Below are positions 50,480-64,000 of a stretch of DNA of 64,000 nucleotides, one piece after another. Under the pieces are notes generated by a model that was not told the origin of the DNA, made no database searches, and worked only from the letters and a program-made list of their open reading frames with translations. The stretch is from NCBI RefSeq assembly GCF_030758975.1, contig NZ_CP132359.1:620001-684000 (forward strand). Reading direction: 5' to 3'. Each line of letters begins with the position of its first letter. Within the stretch, counting starts at the first letter, position 1. The DNA comes from Bosea beijingensis. GTDB lineage: Bacteria > Pseudomonadota > Alphaproteobacteria > Rhizobiales > Beijerinckiaceae. A program made the translations under genes and the position numbers.

Positions 50480-50628
50480 GAATACCCTCACCGTAGCAGA
50501 ACTAAGAATTTAACTTTCAACATCAACACATTAAAGCTCATTTTTTGCAAATCCTTGGACCACTTTGATAATTTGAAGGGCAGATACTCCCCGCTTGACT
50601 CCCACCGCCCTCCCATCCTACCCCCATC

Positions 50629-50682
50629 GACGGGACACGCCCCCCCAACGGGGCGCGCCCATCTGTAAGGATGGAGACATCG
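50629..50682 (+). promoter_or_regulatory. serC leader RNA overlapping the ribosome site
   Basis: A GC hairpin (arms starting GGGACACGCCCC near 50632 and GGGGCGCGCCC to 50660, with one bulge and one mismatch) is followed by CCATC-TGTAAG-GATGG (50659-50674), whose 3' arm covers the GGAG ribosome site at 50673-50676. A known alphaproteobacterial serC leader RNA lies before serC-serA with its last stem over the ribosome site, which this matches in place and form. Confidence 0.65.
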
Positions 50683-57548: not shown

Positions 57549-57602
57549 GCCTTAGACGGCACGCCTCTCAGGCCCTCCTCCTGAATATCTGACTGGCAAC
57601 AC

Positions 57603-57719
57603 CAGCCCTCATCCTGAGGAGGCCCGCAGGGCCGTCTCGAAGGGTGGTCCAGAGGGTTCCGGAGCCTCCTGAAACATCCTTCGAGACGCCGCTGACGCGG
57701 CTCCTCAGGATGAGGGCTG
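57603..57719. repeat. palindromic intergenic repeat, family A, copy 2
   Basis: Outer arms CAGCCCTCATCCTGAGGAG (57603-57621) and CTCCTCAGGATGAGGGCTG (57701-57719). Inner arms contain CGTCTCGAAGG and CATCCTTCGAGACG. Same architecture as 14011-14122. It lies in the 311-base gap before gdx. Confidence 0.75.
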
Positions 57720-57791
57720 AGACGATGAGTTCGGCTGCAAGCCGGCCCTACCCTTGCCATCGCGATTTCCGGTGGCTACCTAAGCACCCGC

Positions 57792-57839
57792 GAGGCCACG
57801 ACCTCCCCCAACCTGGGACATGTGCCGGGACGACCCGGC
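57792..57839 (+). promoter_or_regulatory. guanidine-II (mini-ykkC) riboswitch before gdx
   Basis: The second hairpin is textbook: GCCGGG (57824-57829), loop ACGA, CCCGGC (57834-57839). The first hairpin is less regular: GAGG (57792-57795), CC-ACGA, CCTC (57802-57805). Guanidine-II RNAs are two hairpins with ACGR loops, common before gdx/sugE. The 3' hairpin ends 20 bases before the gdx ATG, close to its ribosome site GGGGGAC, fitting translational control by guanidine. Confidence 0.8.
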
Positions 57840-57859: not shown

Positions 57860-58177
57860 ATGGCGTGGCTCTATCTGTTTTCTGCCGGCATTCTCGAAAT
57901 CGTCTGGGCCTTCACGATGAAGCAGTCGGACGGCTTCACGCGCCCGATGCCGACCGCGATCACCATCGTCACGATGATCGGCAGCTTCGCCCTGCTCTCG
58001 CTGGCGATGCGCTCGCTGCCGCTCGGCACGGCCTACACGATCTGGACCGGCATCGGCGCGGTCGGCGCCTTCATCGTCGGCGTCACCGTGCTCGGCGAGG
58101 CGCTGACGCCGATGCGCATCGCAGCCGCAGTGCTGATCGTTTCCGGCCTCGTCATGATGAAGCTCTCGGCGAGCTGA
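57860..58177 (+). CDS. gdx: guanidinium exporter (SMR family, Gdx/SugE)
   Basis: A 105-residue small multidrug resistance protein with four helices. The first helix holds the central glutamate in GILEIVWAFTMKQSDGFTRPMP, the Gdx-type signature; GTAYTIWTGIGAVGAFIVGV is helix three. Gdx proteins act as dual-topology dimers that export guanidinium in exchange for protons. A guanidine-II riboswitch precedes it, which agrees with this substrate. Confidence 0.9.
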   Translation: MAWLYLFSAGILEIVWAFTMKQSDGFTRPMPTAITIVTMIGSFALLSLAMRSLPLGTAYTIWTGIGAVGAFIVGVTVLGEALTPMRIAAAVLIVSGLVMMKLSAS

Positions 58178-58220
58178 TAGCCGCTCTTGCCAAAGCGGCC
58201 GGCGCCTTCTAGGCAGGCCG

Positions 58221-58268
58221 GGCCTCGGGACGACCCGCGGCCTTCGCAACCTCATAGGGGACGGCCCC
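58221..58268 (+). promoter_or_regulatory. second guanidine-II-like tandem hairpin, before an atpB-like gene
   Basis: Hairpin 1: GGCC-T-CGGG (58221-58229), loop ACGA (58230-58233), CCCG-C-GGCC (58234-58242). Hairpin 2: GGGG (58257-58260), loop ACGG (58261-58264), CCCC (58265-58268). The linker is 14 bases. Both loops obey ACGR and both stems are perfect next to the loop, as in mini-ykkC RNAs. It lies 44 bases after gdx and 54 before the TTG of the next gene; a third hairpin (58273-58288) intervenes. Confidence 0.6.
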
Positions 58269-58322
58269 ACGACGCGGAATGCTCCGCGCCGTCGCGCAAC
58301 CCCGTGAGCGGAGGCCCTCGCC

Positions 58323-59069
58323 TTGGCCAATCCCAGCGACCAGTTCATCGTCAAGACCCTCGTGCCGCTGCGCCTCGGCGGGCTCGATCTCGGTTTCACC
58401 AACGCGGCCCTGATGATGGTACTCGCCACCGCTGCGATCGCCGGCGGGCTGATCCTGGCAACACGCTCGCGCGCCATCGTCCCCGGCCGCGCGCAGGCGC
58501 TGGCCGAAATGCTCTACGAATTCGTCGCGAAGACGCTGACCGACGCCACCGGCCGCGAGGGCATGCGCTTCCTGCCGCTGATCTTCTCGCTCTTCATGTT
58601 CGTGCTGGTGCTCAACCTGTTCGGCATGATCCCCGGCGCCTTCACCGTCACCAGCCATATCGTCGTGACCTTCGCGCTCGCCATGCTGGTGATGGCGACG
58701 GTCATCGGCTACGGCGTGCTGCGCCATGGCTTCGGCTTCCTCAAGCTCTTCGTGCCGTCCGACGTGCCGAAGTGGCTCCTGCCCTTCATCACTCTGATCG
58801 AAATCGTCTCCTTCCTGTCGCGGCCGATCTCGCTGAGCCTGCGCCTCTTCGCCAACCTCCTCGGCGGCCATATCGCGCTCAAGGTCTTCGGCAGCTTCGT
58901 CGCGGCATTGCTTGCCGCCGGTATCGGTACGTCGCTGCTGGCGCCGCTGCCATTGCTGATGACGGTGGCGCTCACCGCCTTCGAATTCATGGTCGCGGTG
59001 CTGCAGGCCTATGTCTTCACCGTGCTCGCCTGCATCTACCTGAACGACGCGCTGCATCCCGGCCATTGA
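58323..59069 (+). CDS. F0F1 ATP synthase subunit a paralogue, outside an atp operon
   Basis: A 248-residue subunit a with five to six helices. The essential arginine is in SRPISLSLRLFANLLGGHI, and the C-terminus AYVFTVLACIYLNDALHPGH is the usual end of alphaproteobacterial AtpB. Subunit a forms the proton half-channels against the c-ring. No atpI, atpE or atpF follow; the next gene is unrelated. The TTG start has GGAGG eight bases upstream. The protein looks intact, so it may be a second, differently regulated copy. Confidence 0.85.
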   Translation: MANPSDQFIVKTLVPLRLGGLDLGFTNAALMMVLATAAIAGGLILATRSRAIVPGRAQALAEMLYEFVAKTLTDATGREGMRFLPLIFSLFMFVLVLNLFGMIPGAFTVTSHIVVTFALAMLVMATVIGYGVLRHGFGFLKLFVPSDVPKWLLPFITLIEIVSFLSRPISLSLRLFANLLGGHIALKVFGSFVAALLAAGIGTSLLAPLPLLMTVALTAFEFMVAVLQAYVFTVLACIYLNDALHPGH

Positions 59070-59070
59070 A

Positions 59071-59120
59071 CGGCGGGGTCGCTCCTGCAAACGCAGGACG
59101 CCTCCGGCGCCCGCCCCGCC
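59071..59120. terminator. GC hairpin after the atpB-like gene
   Basis: GGCGGGG (from 59072) pairs with CCCCGCC near 59114-59120, with an inner hairpin TCCTGC-AAAC-GCAGGA. No T-run. A 16-base palindrome, ATCACG-GCGA-CGTGAT, lies further on at 59174-59189, just before the DUF4139 gene's ribosome site. Confidence 0.45.
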
Positions 59121-61646: not shown

Positions 61647-62843
61647 TCAGGCGGCCTTGGCTTGCCCGAGCTCTTGGTCGACGACGCCGACCCAGTAGCG
61701 CACCCCGTCCGGGATGATCTCGTCGTTGAAGTCGTAGAGCGGCGTATGCAGTCCGGCAGAGCTGCCGTCCGGATCGATGCCGTTGCCGATGAACATGAAA
61801 GCGCCAGGGCGCTGCAGCATCATCTCGGCGAAATCCTCGCCGCCCGTGCTCGGCGCAAGCTGGTCTTCGACGCGCTCGGCGCCGACCGCTGCCGTCGCCG
61901 CAGCGACGGCGACGCGGACCTGCTCGGCTGCGTTGATCAGCGGGCTGGTGCCACGACGGTAGAAGGCTTCCGCCTTGCAGCCCCAGGCCTGCGCCGTCGC
62001 CGCCGCAAGCTCACCGATACGGCGCTCGACGATGTCGCGTACTTCCAGCGAATAGGTGCGGGCCGTGCCGCCGATGACGAGCTCGGACGGAATCACGTTC
62101 GAGGCGTTGACGTCGCCGCCATGGATATAGCCGACGCTGATCACCGCCGTGTCGAGCGGGGGCACGTTGCGGCCGACGATGCCCTGCAGGCCAAGCACGA
62201 AATGCGCCTGCGCATAGGTGATGTCGGTCGAAAGATGTGGCTGGGAGCCGCCATGGCCGCCGACGCCGCGGAAGGTGACCTTCCAGCTATCGGCCGCCGC
62301 CAGGAACGGGCCGACATTGATGCCGAAACTCGAAACCGGCATGCCGGGCACGTTATGCAGCCCATAGATCGCGTCGCAGGGGAAGCGCTCGAACAGCTTG
62401 TCGGCCAGCATGGCGTTGGCGCCGCCGCGGCCTTCCTCGGCCGGCTGGAAGATCAGGTTGACGGTGCCGGCGAAGTCGCGGTTCTCGGCGAGGTAGCGCG
62501 CCGCGGCGAGCAGCATCGTGGTGTGCCCGTCATGGCCGCAGGCATGCATCCGGCCCGGATTCTTCGAGGAATAGGGCAGATTGGTCGTCTCATCGAGCGC
62601 AAGGCAGTCCATGTCGGCGCGCAGGCCCACCGCACGGCCGGGCCTGTTGCCGCGGATCACCCCGACGACGCCGGTCTTGCCGACATTCTCGGTGACCTCG
62701 ACCCCCCACTCGCGCAGCTTGTCGGCAACGAGCTTGGCCGTGCGGACTTCTTCGAGCCCGAGTTCAGGATGAGCATGGATATCGCGGCGGATCGCGGTGA
62801 AGGCGGCGTGATGCTGGCCGAGCCAGGCGTCGAGCTTGGTCAT
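61647..62843 (-). CDS. M20 family amidohydrolase (hippurate hydrolase-like), copy 1
   Basis: A 398-residue M20D metallo-amidohydrolase. Zinc ligands appear in [29 protein letters not shown] and the closing [15 protein letters not shown]; the dimerisation domain lies between about residues 185 and 295. Relatives deacylate N-acyl amino acids (hippurate, N-acetyl-amino acids, auxin conjugates). No signal peptide. It is one of two tandem paralogues in the same orientation. Confidence 0.9.
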   Translation of the reverse strand: MTKLDAWLGQHHAAFTAIRRDIHAHPELGLEEVRTAKLVADKLREWGVEVTENVGKTGVVGVIRGNRPGRAVGLRADMDCLALDETTNLPYSSKNPGRMHACGHDGHTTMLLAAARYLAENRDFAGTVNLIFQPAEEGRGGANAMLADKLFERFPCDAIYGLHNVPGMPVSSFGINVGPFLAAADSWKVTFRGVGGHGGSQPHLSTDITYAQAHFVLGLQGIVGRNVPPLDTAVISVGYIHGGDVNASNVIPSELVIGGTARTYSLEVRDIVERRIGELAAATAQAWGCKAEAFYRRGTSPLINAAEQVRVAVAAATAAVGAERVEDQLAPSTGGEDFAEMMLQRPGAFMFIGNGIDPDGSSAGLHTPLYDFNDEIIPDGVRYWVGVVDQELGQAKAA

Positions 62844-63053
62844 GATCGGTGTCTTCCCCTCTCCTGCGGCATCGGGAATGTGAGCTCAGCCGATGTTCCC
62901 GATCCGCTCCATATCGCAGAATTCTTCGAAATAGGTCGAACGTCCAGGCCAACTGCCCCGACCGAAACAGCGCGTGCCATCCGGATGGGGCGAAGCCTGG
63001 GCCGGCCCCCGTGTGGAACGACCGGGAATGACGGGCTGTCCTGCGTGATCGCA

Positions 63054-63073
63054 GCCGGCCCCGGAGGGCCGGC
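63054..63073. terminator. hairpin 3' of the second M20 gene
   Basis: GCCGGCCC (63054-63061) and GGGCCGGC (63066-63073) around CGGA, identical to the hairpin at 61613-61632. It lies 14 bases after the second M20 stop and about 210 before the first M20 start. Confidence 0.6.
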
Positions 63074-63087
63074 CGCGATGATCGTGA

Positions 63088-64000
63088 TCAGGCGGCCTTG
63101 GCCTGCCCGAGCTCCTGGTCGACGACGCCGACCCAGTAGCGCACGCCATCCGGGATGATCTCGTCGTTGAAGTCGTAGAGCGGCGTATGCAGGCCGACGA
63201 AGGAGCCGTCCGGGTTGACGCCGTTGCCGATGCGCATGAAAGCGCCAGGGCGCACCAGCATCATCTCGGCGAAATCCTCGCCGCCCGTGCCCGGCCGCAA
63301 CTGGCCGTTGACCTTCTCGGCGCCGACCGCGGCCGTCGCTGCCGCGACGCCGACCCGGACCTGCTCGGCCTCGTTCACCAGCGGGCTGGTGCCACGATGA
63401 TAATAGGCCTCGGCCTTGCAACCCCAGGCCTGAGCGGTGGCCGCCGCGAGCTCGCCGATACGGCGCTCGACGAGATCGCGCACCTCAAGCGAGTAGGTGC
63501 GGGCCGTGCCGCCGATGACAAGTTCGGAGGGAATGACGTTCGAGGCGTTGACGTCGCCGCCATGGATATAGCCGACGCTGATCACCGCCGTGTCGAGCGG
63601 GGCGACGTTGCGGCCGATGATGCCCTGCAGGCCGAGCACGAAATGCGCCTGGGCATAGGTGATGTCGGTCGAGCGATGCGGCTGCGAGCCGCCATGGCCG
63701 CCGACGCCGTGGAAGGTGACCTTCCAGCTATCGGCCGCCGCCAGGAACGGGCCGACCGTGGTGCCGAAGGTGCCGGGCGCCATGCCGGGCGTGTTGTGCA
63801 GGCCGTAGATCGCATCGCAGGGAAAACGCTCGAACAGCTTGTCGGCCAGCATCGCATTGGCGCCGCCGCGGCCTTCCTCGGCCGGCTGGAAGATCAGGTT
63901 GACGGTGCCCTCGAAATCCCGGTTCTCGGCGAGGTAGCGCCCGGCCGCGAGCAGCATCGTGGTGTGCCCGTCATGACCGCAGGCATGCATCCGGCCCGGA
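63088..64000 (-). CDS. M20 family amidohydrolase, copy 2 (5' end outside window)
   Basis: The last 304 or so residues of a second M20D amidohydrolase. The frame is open to the window edge, and PGR just before [11 protein letters not shown] matches copy 1, so the ATG at 63990 is internal. Metal ligands are conserved as in copy 1. The two proteins are near-identical over long stretches. Differences cluster in the dimerisation domain and around [18 protein letters not shown], which may shift substrate preference. Confidence 0.9.

Follow-up and report, generated by a model that had tools for sequence, protein, structure and literature searches.

A predicted guanidine-II riboswitch before a second F0 subunit a gene in Bosea beijingensis suggests that cells swap part of their ATP synthase when guanidine appears

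Genes and RNA elements at the locus

The window, i.e., the whole stretch of 64,000 nucleotides of Bosea beijingensis that was analysed (contig NZ_CP132359.1, positions 620,001 to 684,000), contains a gene of the SMR family, gdx, followed on the same strand by a second gene for the F0 subunit a. The features of this locus are the following:

57788..57838, + strand, weak guanidine-II match before gdx (RF01068, 24.4 bits, under the 32-bit cut-off)
57860..58177, + strand, gdx, SMR family, presumed guanidinium exporter, 105 aa (PF00893, 98 bits)
58178..59080, + strand, present/absent stretch with the riboswitch candidate and the atpB paralogue (blastn and junctions, boundaries within about 15 bases)
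58221..58242, + strand, guanidine-II hairpin P1, loop ACGA (sequence, RF01068 alignment)
58257..58268, + strand, guanidine-II hairpin P2, loop ACGG (sequence, RF01068 alignment; almost constant in 17 sequences)
58270..58294, + strand, third hairpin (sequence, minimum-energy fold)
58310..58314, + strand, Shine-Dalgarno GGAGG, 8 bases 5' of the TTG start (sequence)
58323..59069, + strand, second F0 subunit a gene (atpB paralogue), 248 aa, TTG start (PF00119)

The initial annotation had described two adjacent hairpins with perfect stems and ACGA and ACGG loops between gdx and the atpB paralogue. Both loops are seen in the sequence and are kept in the relatives. The description of the stems holds for P2, in which GGGG pairs with CCCC with no mismatch around the loop at 58261-58264, and is slightly too strong for P1, in which two segments of 4 bp (GGCC with GGCC and CGGG with CCCG) are interrupted by one internal U.C mismatch and enclose the loop at 58230-58233. 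There are 43 bases between the gdx stop and P1, and 53 bases between the end of the Rfam match and the atpB start.

The Rfam guanidine-II model (RF01068; GII) matched positions 58222-58269 with 37.9 bits, above the gathering score of 32 (E 5.4e-4 for 64 kb x 4227 families), in agreement with the class proposed from the loops. In the 5.56-Mb genome this match had an E value of 1.1e-5, was the best among 13 matches at E <= 10 and was the sole one over the cut-off; the runner-up, with 24.4 bits, is the one before gdx, and its counterpart before gdx in the relative G126 scores 37.9 bits. That two such hairpins so close together are very unlikely by chance was confirmed with a hairpin script run on both strands, which found one such double hairpin in the 64-kb window versus a mean of 0.02 in 100 first-order Markov versions of the window with the same dinucleotide make-up. 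By its covariance score, its two ACGR hairpins and its covarying stems (see below), the element is most probably a guanidine-II riboswitch and, as a member of this class, would bind guanidinium.

A third hairpin had also been reported between this element and the start codon; it was found at 58270-58294, and a hairpin of other sequence is predicted by minimum-energy folding at the same site in the loci L201 and L202. When the window leader is folded without ligand, the GGGG of P2 finds its partner further downstream and most of the Shine-Dalgarno region is base-paired (mean probability of being unpaired 0.14 for CGGAGG); in the corresponding fold of L298, a G-rich stretch 5' of the start codon is the partner of the 3' strand of P2. 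According to an excerpt of PMC13064478, guanidinium binding to the GII of E. coli exposes the Shine-Dalgarno and raises gdx translation. The predicted folds, which describe the ligand-free state only, agree with an ON switch.

The protein of the paralogue matched PF00119 with 211.2 bits (cut-off 33.9) over profile positions 2-217 of 217, that is, at full length, and its nearest solved relative was the Paracoccus subunit a (5dn6, 188.6 bits). There is one other atpB in the genome (C1:2298482-2299219), 62% identical to the paralogue. The single subunit-c gene found (C1:2298200-2298388) adjoins that other atpB and not the paralogue, which thus does not lie beside subunit c as the atpB of an atp operon does, taking the subunit-c gene as the only marker. 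A dedicated second c-ring was considered and dropped, since no second subunit-c gene was found and a single one passed the Pfam cut-off in 12/12 genomes searched; an extra piece in G381 reached only 22.6 bits, under the cut-off.

By comparison with GII before gdx/sugE, the window element also has two ACGR hairpins and covarying stems, scores over the cut-off and lies on the same strand upstream of a start codon, but it precedes an F0 subunit a gene. The parts of the literature searched tie the class to exporters of the SMR family and to the use of guanidine, urea or agmatine, and in them we found no link between a guanidine riboswitch and ATP synthase or atpB (excerpts of PMC12186494, PMC3766115, PMC7266159, PMC12342949, PMC9574504, PMC7736828, and PMC13064478); an unremarked entry in the original guanidine-II gene lists is possible. 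Like an F-type subunit a (AtpB, PF00119), the paralogue is full length and keeps the essential Arg; unlike it, the paralogue is an orphan, away from the subunit-c gene and behind a riboswitch, and the group of relatives called clade II below has near-fixed changes beside the Arg and its partner Gln. Some of the same families also have distant second subunit a genes, 29-38% identical, which we take to be of the N-ATPase type; these are far more diverged, and by position comparison there is no GII match near them.

Other elements were observed in the window. A serC leader RNA (RF00517, 63.1 bits) lies at 50628-50679. A long palindromic intergenic repeat at 57598-57731, upstream of gdx, gives microRNA matches far under the cut-offs on both strands. 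Two adjacent near-alike amidohydrolase-like genes (M20-type, by eye) occupy 61647-63990 on the minus strand.

Recurrence of the riboswitch before second atpB genes

A GII directly 5' of a second atpB was found at 61 loci: 10 in the genus, 1 in G015, 6 in G376, G381, G464, G490, G559, and G436, 2 in Microvirga and Phyllobacterium and 42 in the family of G436. At 34 of the 61 loci the GII passes the Rfam cut-off, at 6 it scored below it, and 21 were found with the script only. The GII under 32 bits are those of G124, G131, and G168 (31.5-31.6), L202 (28.7), L293 (25.4), and L317.

Among 67 genomes of the genus, 11 had a second atpB match; 10 of these are F0-type, each with a GII in front of the second copy, and the second match of G147 is only 38% identical and of another type. 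Seven copies of the window type are 80-100% identical, with 42-54 bases between GII and start and scores of 32.3-42.3 bits, and the gap is 267 bases in G124, G131, and G168. Where the GII is far from atpB in L167, L168, and L277, an ATG just past the hairpins starts a short frame overlapping the atpB start, and the stop-start overlaps (TGATGG, TAATGG) resemble, by eye, translational coupling. In the 119 family genomes searched, a broken atpB with a GII on each side and followed by gdx occurs in G015. Nine of 397 genomes of the order had at least two atpB matches, of which G300 (56% complete, two matches) was left out and G347 has no GII at its two extra copies; in this sample, a GII stands directly before the extra atpB in G000, G376, G381, G436, G464, G490, and G559. 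In G436 the atpB is truncated and the GII is weak (25.4 bits). Second copies behind a GII are also found in Microvirga sp. 3-52 (28.7 bits) and on a plasmid of Phyllobacterium sp. T1293 (34.0 bits); the plasmid gene and L306 are 98% identical and may represent a single event.

Searching proteins with the G381 form yielded 935 of them at E <= 1e-90. Of 374 genomes in the family of G436, 45 carry this form (E <= 1e-98), none of the 45 proteins has an internal stop, and 44 show the H/V signature, one being unmatched by the pattern. A same-strand GII within 400 bases upstream was present in 42/45, namely 29/30 and 12/15 by the script and one by Rfam (35.4 bits). The three without it (L324, L329, L331) belong to one genus, of which three other sampled members have GII. 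When Rfam was run at its cut-off on 20 loci of this family, 19 had a match before atpB and L317 passed only at gdx. The gene orders observed were GII-atpB-GII-gdx, GII-gdx-GII-atpB, GII-atpB-gdx, and GII-atpB alone. Eight second copies lack a GII: two in G347, one of them frame-broken, and those of L203, L204, L208, L324, L329, and L331.

As controls we used 113 atpB taken as canonical (distinct sequences from 134 retrieved), an assignment by assumption and not by the operon context of each locus; rows with stops or incomplete ends, eight known GII-linked loci and three Microvirga second copies were left out. With the same hairpin script, 0/113 had a GII within 400 bases upstream, and Rfam found no GII match in 20 of these loci. 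The script existed in three versions across the scans and missed true GII at L163, L181, L182, and L339, which were counted from Rfam, so the 0/113 shares its blind spots.

The aligned GII before atpB (the window plus 16 others, obtained from 19 leaders after leaving out two near-copies of L264) had standard pairs in 92% of the pair cells and invariant ACGA and ACGG loops across the 17 sequences. Six of the 12 pairs vary on both sides, five of these in P1, and P2 hardly varies. The covariation score was 0.184 versus 0.071 in shuffles, with 0/500 shuffles as high and slid versions reaching at most 0.130. A comparison with related genomes had been proposed for loops and stems, and in it both loops are kept and the stems covary.

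In G143 and G144, gdx is 95-97% identical to that of the window and both flanks align at 87-93%; by blastn and the junctions, the sequence between the gdx stop at 58177 and a point near 59080 is absent as one piece. Since the GII and atpB are missing together while gdx stays, a leftover riboswitch is disfavoured. Considering the score above the threshold, the kept loops, the covarying stems and the 61 linked loci, the riboswitch appears to belong to atpB, and we regard it as very probable that it controls the second atpB. The connection of guanidine sensing to an F0 subunit a, which had been put forward as conditional on function, is thus supported by the 61 GII-atpB loci versus 0/113 controls, with guanidinium binding presumed from the sequence class.

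Evolution of the GII-linked subunit a proteins

Among six Bosea-type copies dN/dS was 0.06-0.22, and in one canonical pair about 0.14, which indicates that the paralogue is under purifying selection. A pseudogene reading was ruled out by dN/dS for the window type and holds for G015 and G436, the two loci with a decayed atpB behind the GII.

In a tree with 17 rows of GII-linked AtpBs, to which the family of G436 contributes no row, these proteins fall into two clades. Clade I comprises the Bosea type, including the window, and Microvirga sp. 3-52, beside Microvirga second copies without GII; clade II comprises all other GII-linked AtpBs in the tree. With all of them forced into a single clade, the tree is worse by 30 log units (p-AU 0.018), and because this constraint is disfavoured the recruitment behind GII probably happened twice. 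The Microvirga copies without GII (L203, L204, and L208, from three species) are sister to clade I, have no GII or gdx nearby and all three carry S166A and A181G.

The essential Arg of the window paralogue is R174 and its partner Gln is Q228, which we take, by offset, to be R210 and Q252 of E. coli; hence N178 would be N214 and A225 would be I249. R174 is found in 113/113 canonical sequences and in 120/120 of the best 120 of the 935 clade II proteins, which also retain H183 and Q228 in 120/120. Clade II carries L171H, N178V, and V224M in 9/9 aligned sequences and in 120/120 of those best 120 of 935, and F164Y in 119/120 of them; A225S, L227I, and V231I are frequent. Canonical AtpB has N178 in 113/113, and a His like that of L171H occurs also in 1/113 canonical sequences and in the Paracoccus enzyme. 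Clade I keeps N178 and carries A181G in 8/8 and F84L, G147D, M179L, and G191S in seven.

In clade II, 7/8 of the conserved sites with changes are no more than 10 residues away from R174 or Q228, versus 27/91 of the conserved sites overall (p 0.0007, Fisher windows picked after the substitutions were seen). Clustering in clade I was dropped as not significant (3/7, p 0.34). Excerpts of a study of the E. coli subunit place S202, S206, N214, and I249 near the c-ring and count them among the residues that silver ions reach most readily (PMC6377231). The same excerpts list N214 (the Asn is N173 there) and Q252 as functionally important, yet less so than two other residues, and because of this ranking N178V need not alter function (PMC6377231).

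At sites with a conservation of 95% or more in canonical AtpB, no signature common to both clades was found. There are shared leanings at other sites, GII-linked versus canonical: A106 in 16/17 versus 18/113, H138 in 0/17 versus 99/113, R141 in 15/17 versus 6/113, and T214 in 16/17 versus 19/113. They may reflect shared selection or, contrary to two origins, a shared ancestry.

A guanidine-switched subunit a and its alternatives

Guanidinium is the chemical head group of arginine, including the essential arginine of the stator. Guanidines were reportedly described as inhibitors of mitochondrial energy metabolism by Hollunger in 1955 and Pressman in 1963. Excerpts of PMC8873251 describe bedaquiline as a mimic of the arginine of subunit a. 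They also state that ATP synthesis in vesicles is inhibited by amiloride, which is an acylguanidine, and by the related compound HMA, and that HMA prevails over DCCD in competition at the c-ring. Taking into account that guanidinium mimics the stator Arg and that arginine-mimic drugs hit F0, the induced subunit may be less sensitive to guanidinium.

We propose that rising guanidinium would act on the GII (58221-58268) and turn on translation of the second F0 subunit a alongside the exporter Gdx, the ON direction and the binding of guanidinium being those expected of the riboswitch class. The induced subunit a would enter newly assembled ATP synthases with the sole c-ring found in the cell. Guanidinium would enter the aqueous half-channel and compete for the c-ring carboxylate, and the altered residues of the induced subunit would let F0 keep turning despite it. 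To this whole explanation, a guanidine-switched alternative subunit a that keeps F0 working under guanidinium, we give an even chance. The protective mechanism taken by itself stands slightly below even odds. The broader statement that guanidinium is a natural F0 inhibitor imitating the stator Arg, and that Hyphomicrobiales rebuild the stator with an inducible tolerant subunit a, probably invented twice, is put forward tentatively, as somewhat more likely to be wrong than right. Against tolerance count that the clade I of the window keeps N178, that its changes do not cluster significantly near the Arg and Gln, and that not every arginine mimic is able to inhibit F0 (excerpt of PMC8873251). 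Another possible target is complex I or respiration, on which the excerpts of papers about guanide drugs and mitochondria concentrate.

Spare target genes insensitive to an inhibitor (target bypass) are a general kind of resistance. The locus resembles them in that an essential target has been duplicated and has diverged, with the copy placed under a sensor for the inhibitor presumed here; it differs in that the duplication covers only one subunit of a rotary motor and that this inhibitor would be a metabolite that occurs naturally, and the insensitivity is a proposed one.

The alternative that survives best, though we consider it unlikely, is that the paralogue forms a poorly conducting F0, so that ATP synthesis draws less of the proton-motive force and leaves more for Gdx. 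Gdx adjoins many of the copies and spends two protons per guanidinium (excerpt of PMC12186494), and clade II alters the conserved Asn listed as functionally important in E. coli (excerpt of PMC6377231); however, R174, H183, and Q228 are retained in 120/120 clade II proteins (best 120 of 935), clade I keeps the Asn, and dN/dS is similar to that of one canonical pair.

Slightly less likely still is a role in dosage or repair, in which guanidinium as a chaotrope damages membrane complexes, extra subunit a replaces the losses and the substitutions are drift. Guanidine accumulation may denature proteins (excerpt of PMC12186494), and a second subunit c was not found in the 12 genomes; but such a copy need not hold identical changes at near-invariant sites in 120/120 proteins (best 120 of 935), and two origins are probable.

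That the paralogue acts outside the ATP synthase, for example as a path for cation leak or export, alone or with Gdx, would suit an orphan gene with an exporter as neighbour, yet it is improbable, as Arg174 and Gln228 are retained and we know of no subunit a that works alone. The possibility raised in the initial annotation, that the second riboswitch is the relic of a lost SMR gene with atpB hitchhiking, can be set aside as very improbable: gdx lies directly behind in some loci and atpB is decayed in two, but against it stand the 61 GII-atpB junctions versus 0/113 controls, the joint absence in G143 and G144 with gdx and the downstream DNA remaining, the loci where a GII directly precedes atpB and gdx follows under its own GII, the purifying selection on atpB, and the covarying stems.

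The large set of GII-led F0 subunit a genes points to the ATP synthase as a guanidine target, suggests that cells swap part of it when guanidine appears, and bears on why free guanidine is dangerous enough for several riboswitch classes. If the proposed exchange of subunit a is true, a rotary ATPase would be swapping one stator subunit under the control of a metabolite, and the paralogues would be a natural collection of substitutions around the arginine imitated by arginine-mimetic drugs. Guanidine may also control cation/proton homeostasis more widely.

GII before other genes were also observed. Positions 1-2510 of L338 (G740:C17) have four GII over the cut-off within 1.7 kb: one before an MrpF/PhaF antiporter subunit gene, one before a Na+/Ca2+-exchanger-type antiporter gene and the remaining two between the latter and an atpB paralogue. 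In L017 (by Pfam) and L027 (by eye) a GII lies directly before Na_Ca_ex antiporter genes, and in L033 (checked), L034, and L154 (both by eye) directly before chlorhexidine-efflux (BTP) genes.
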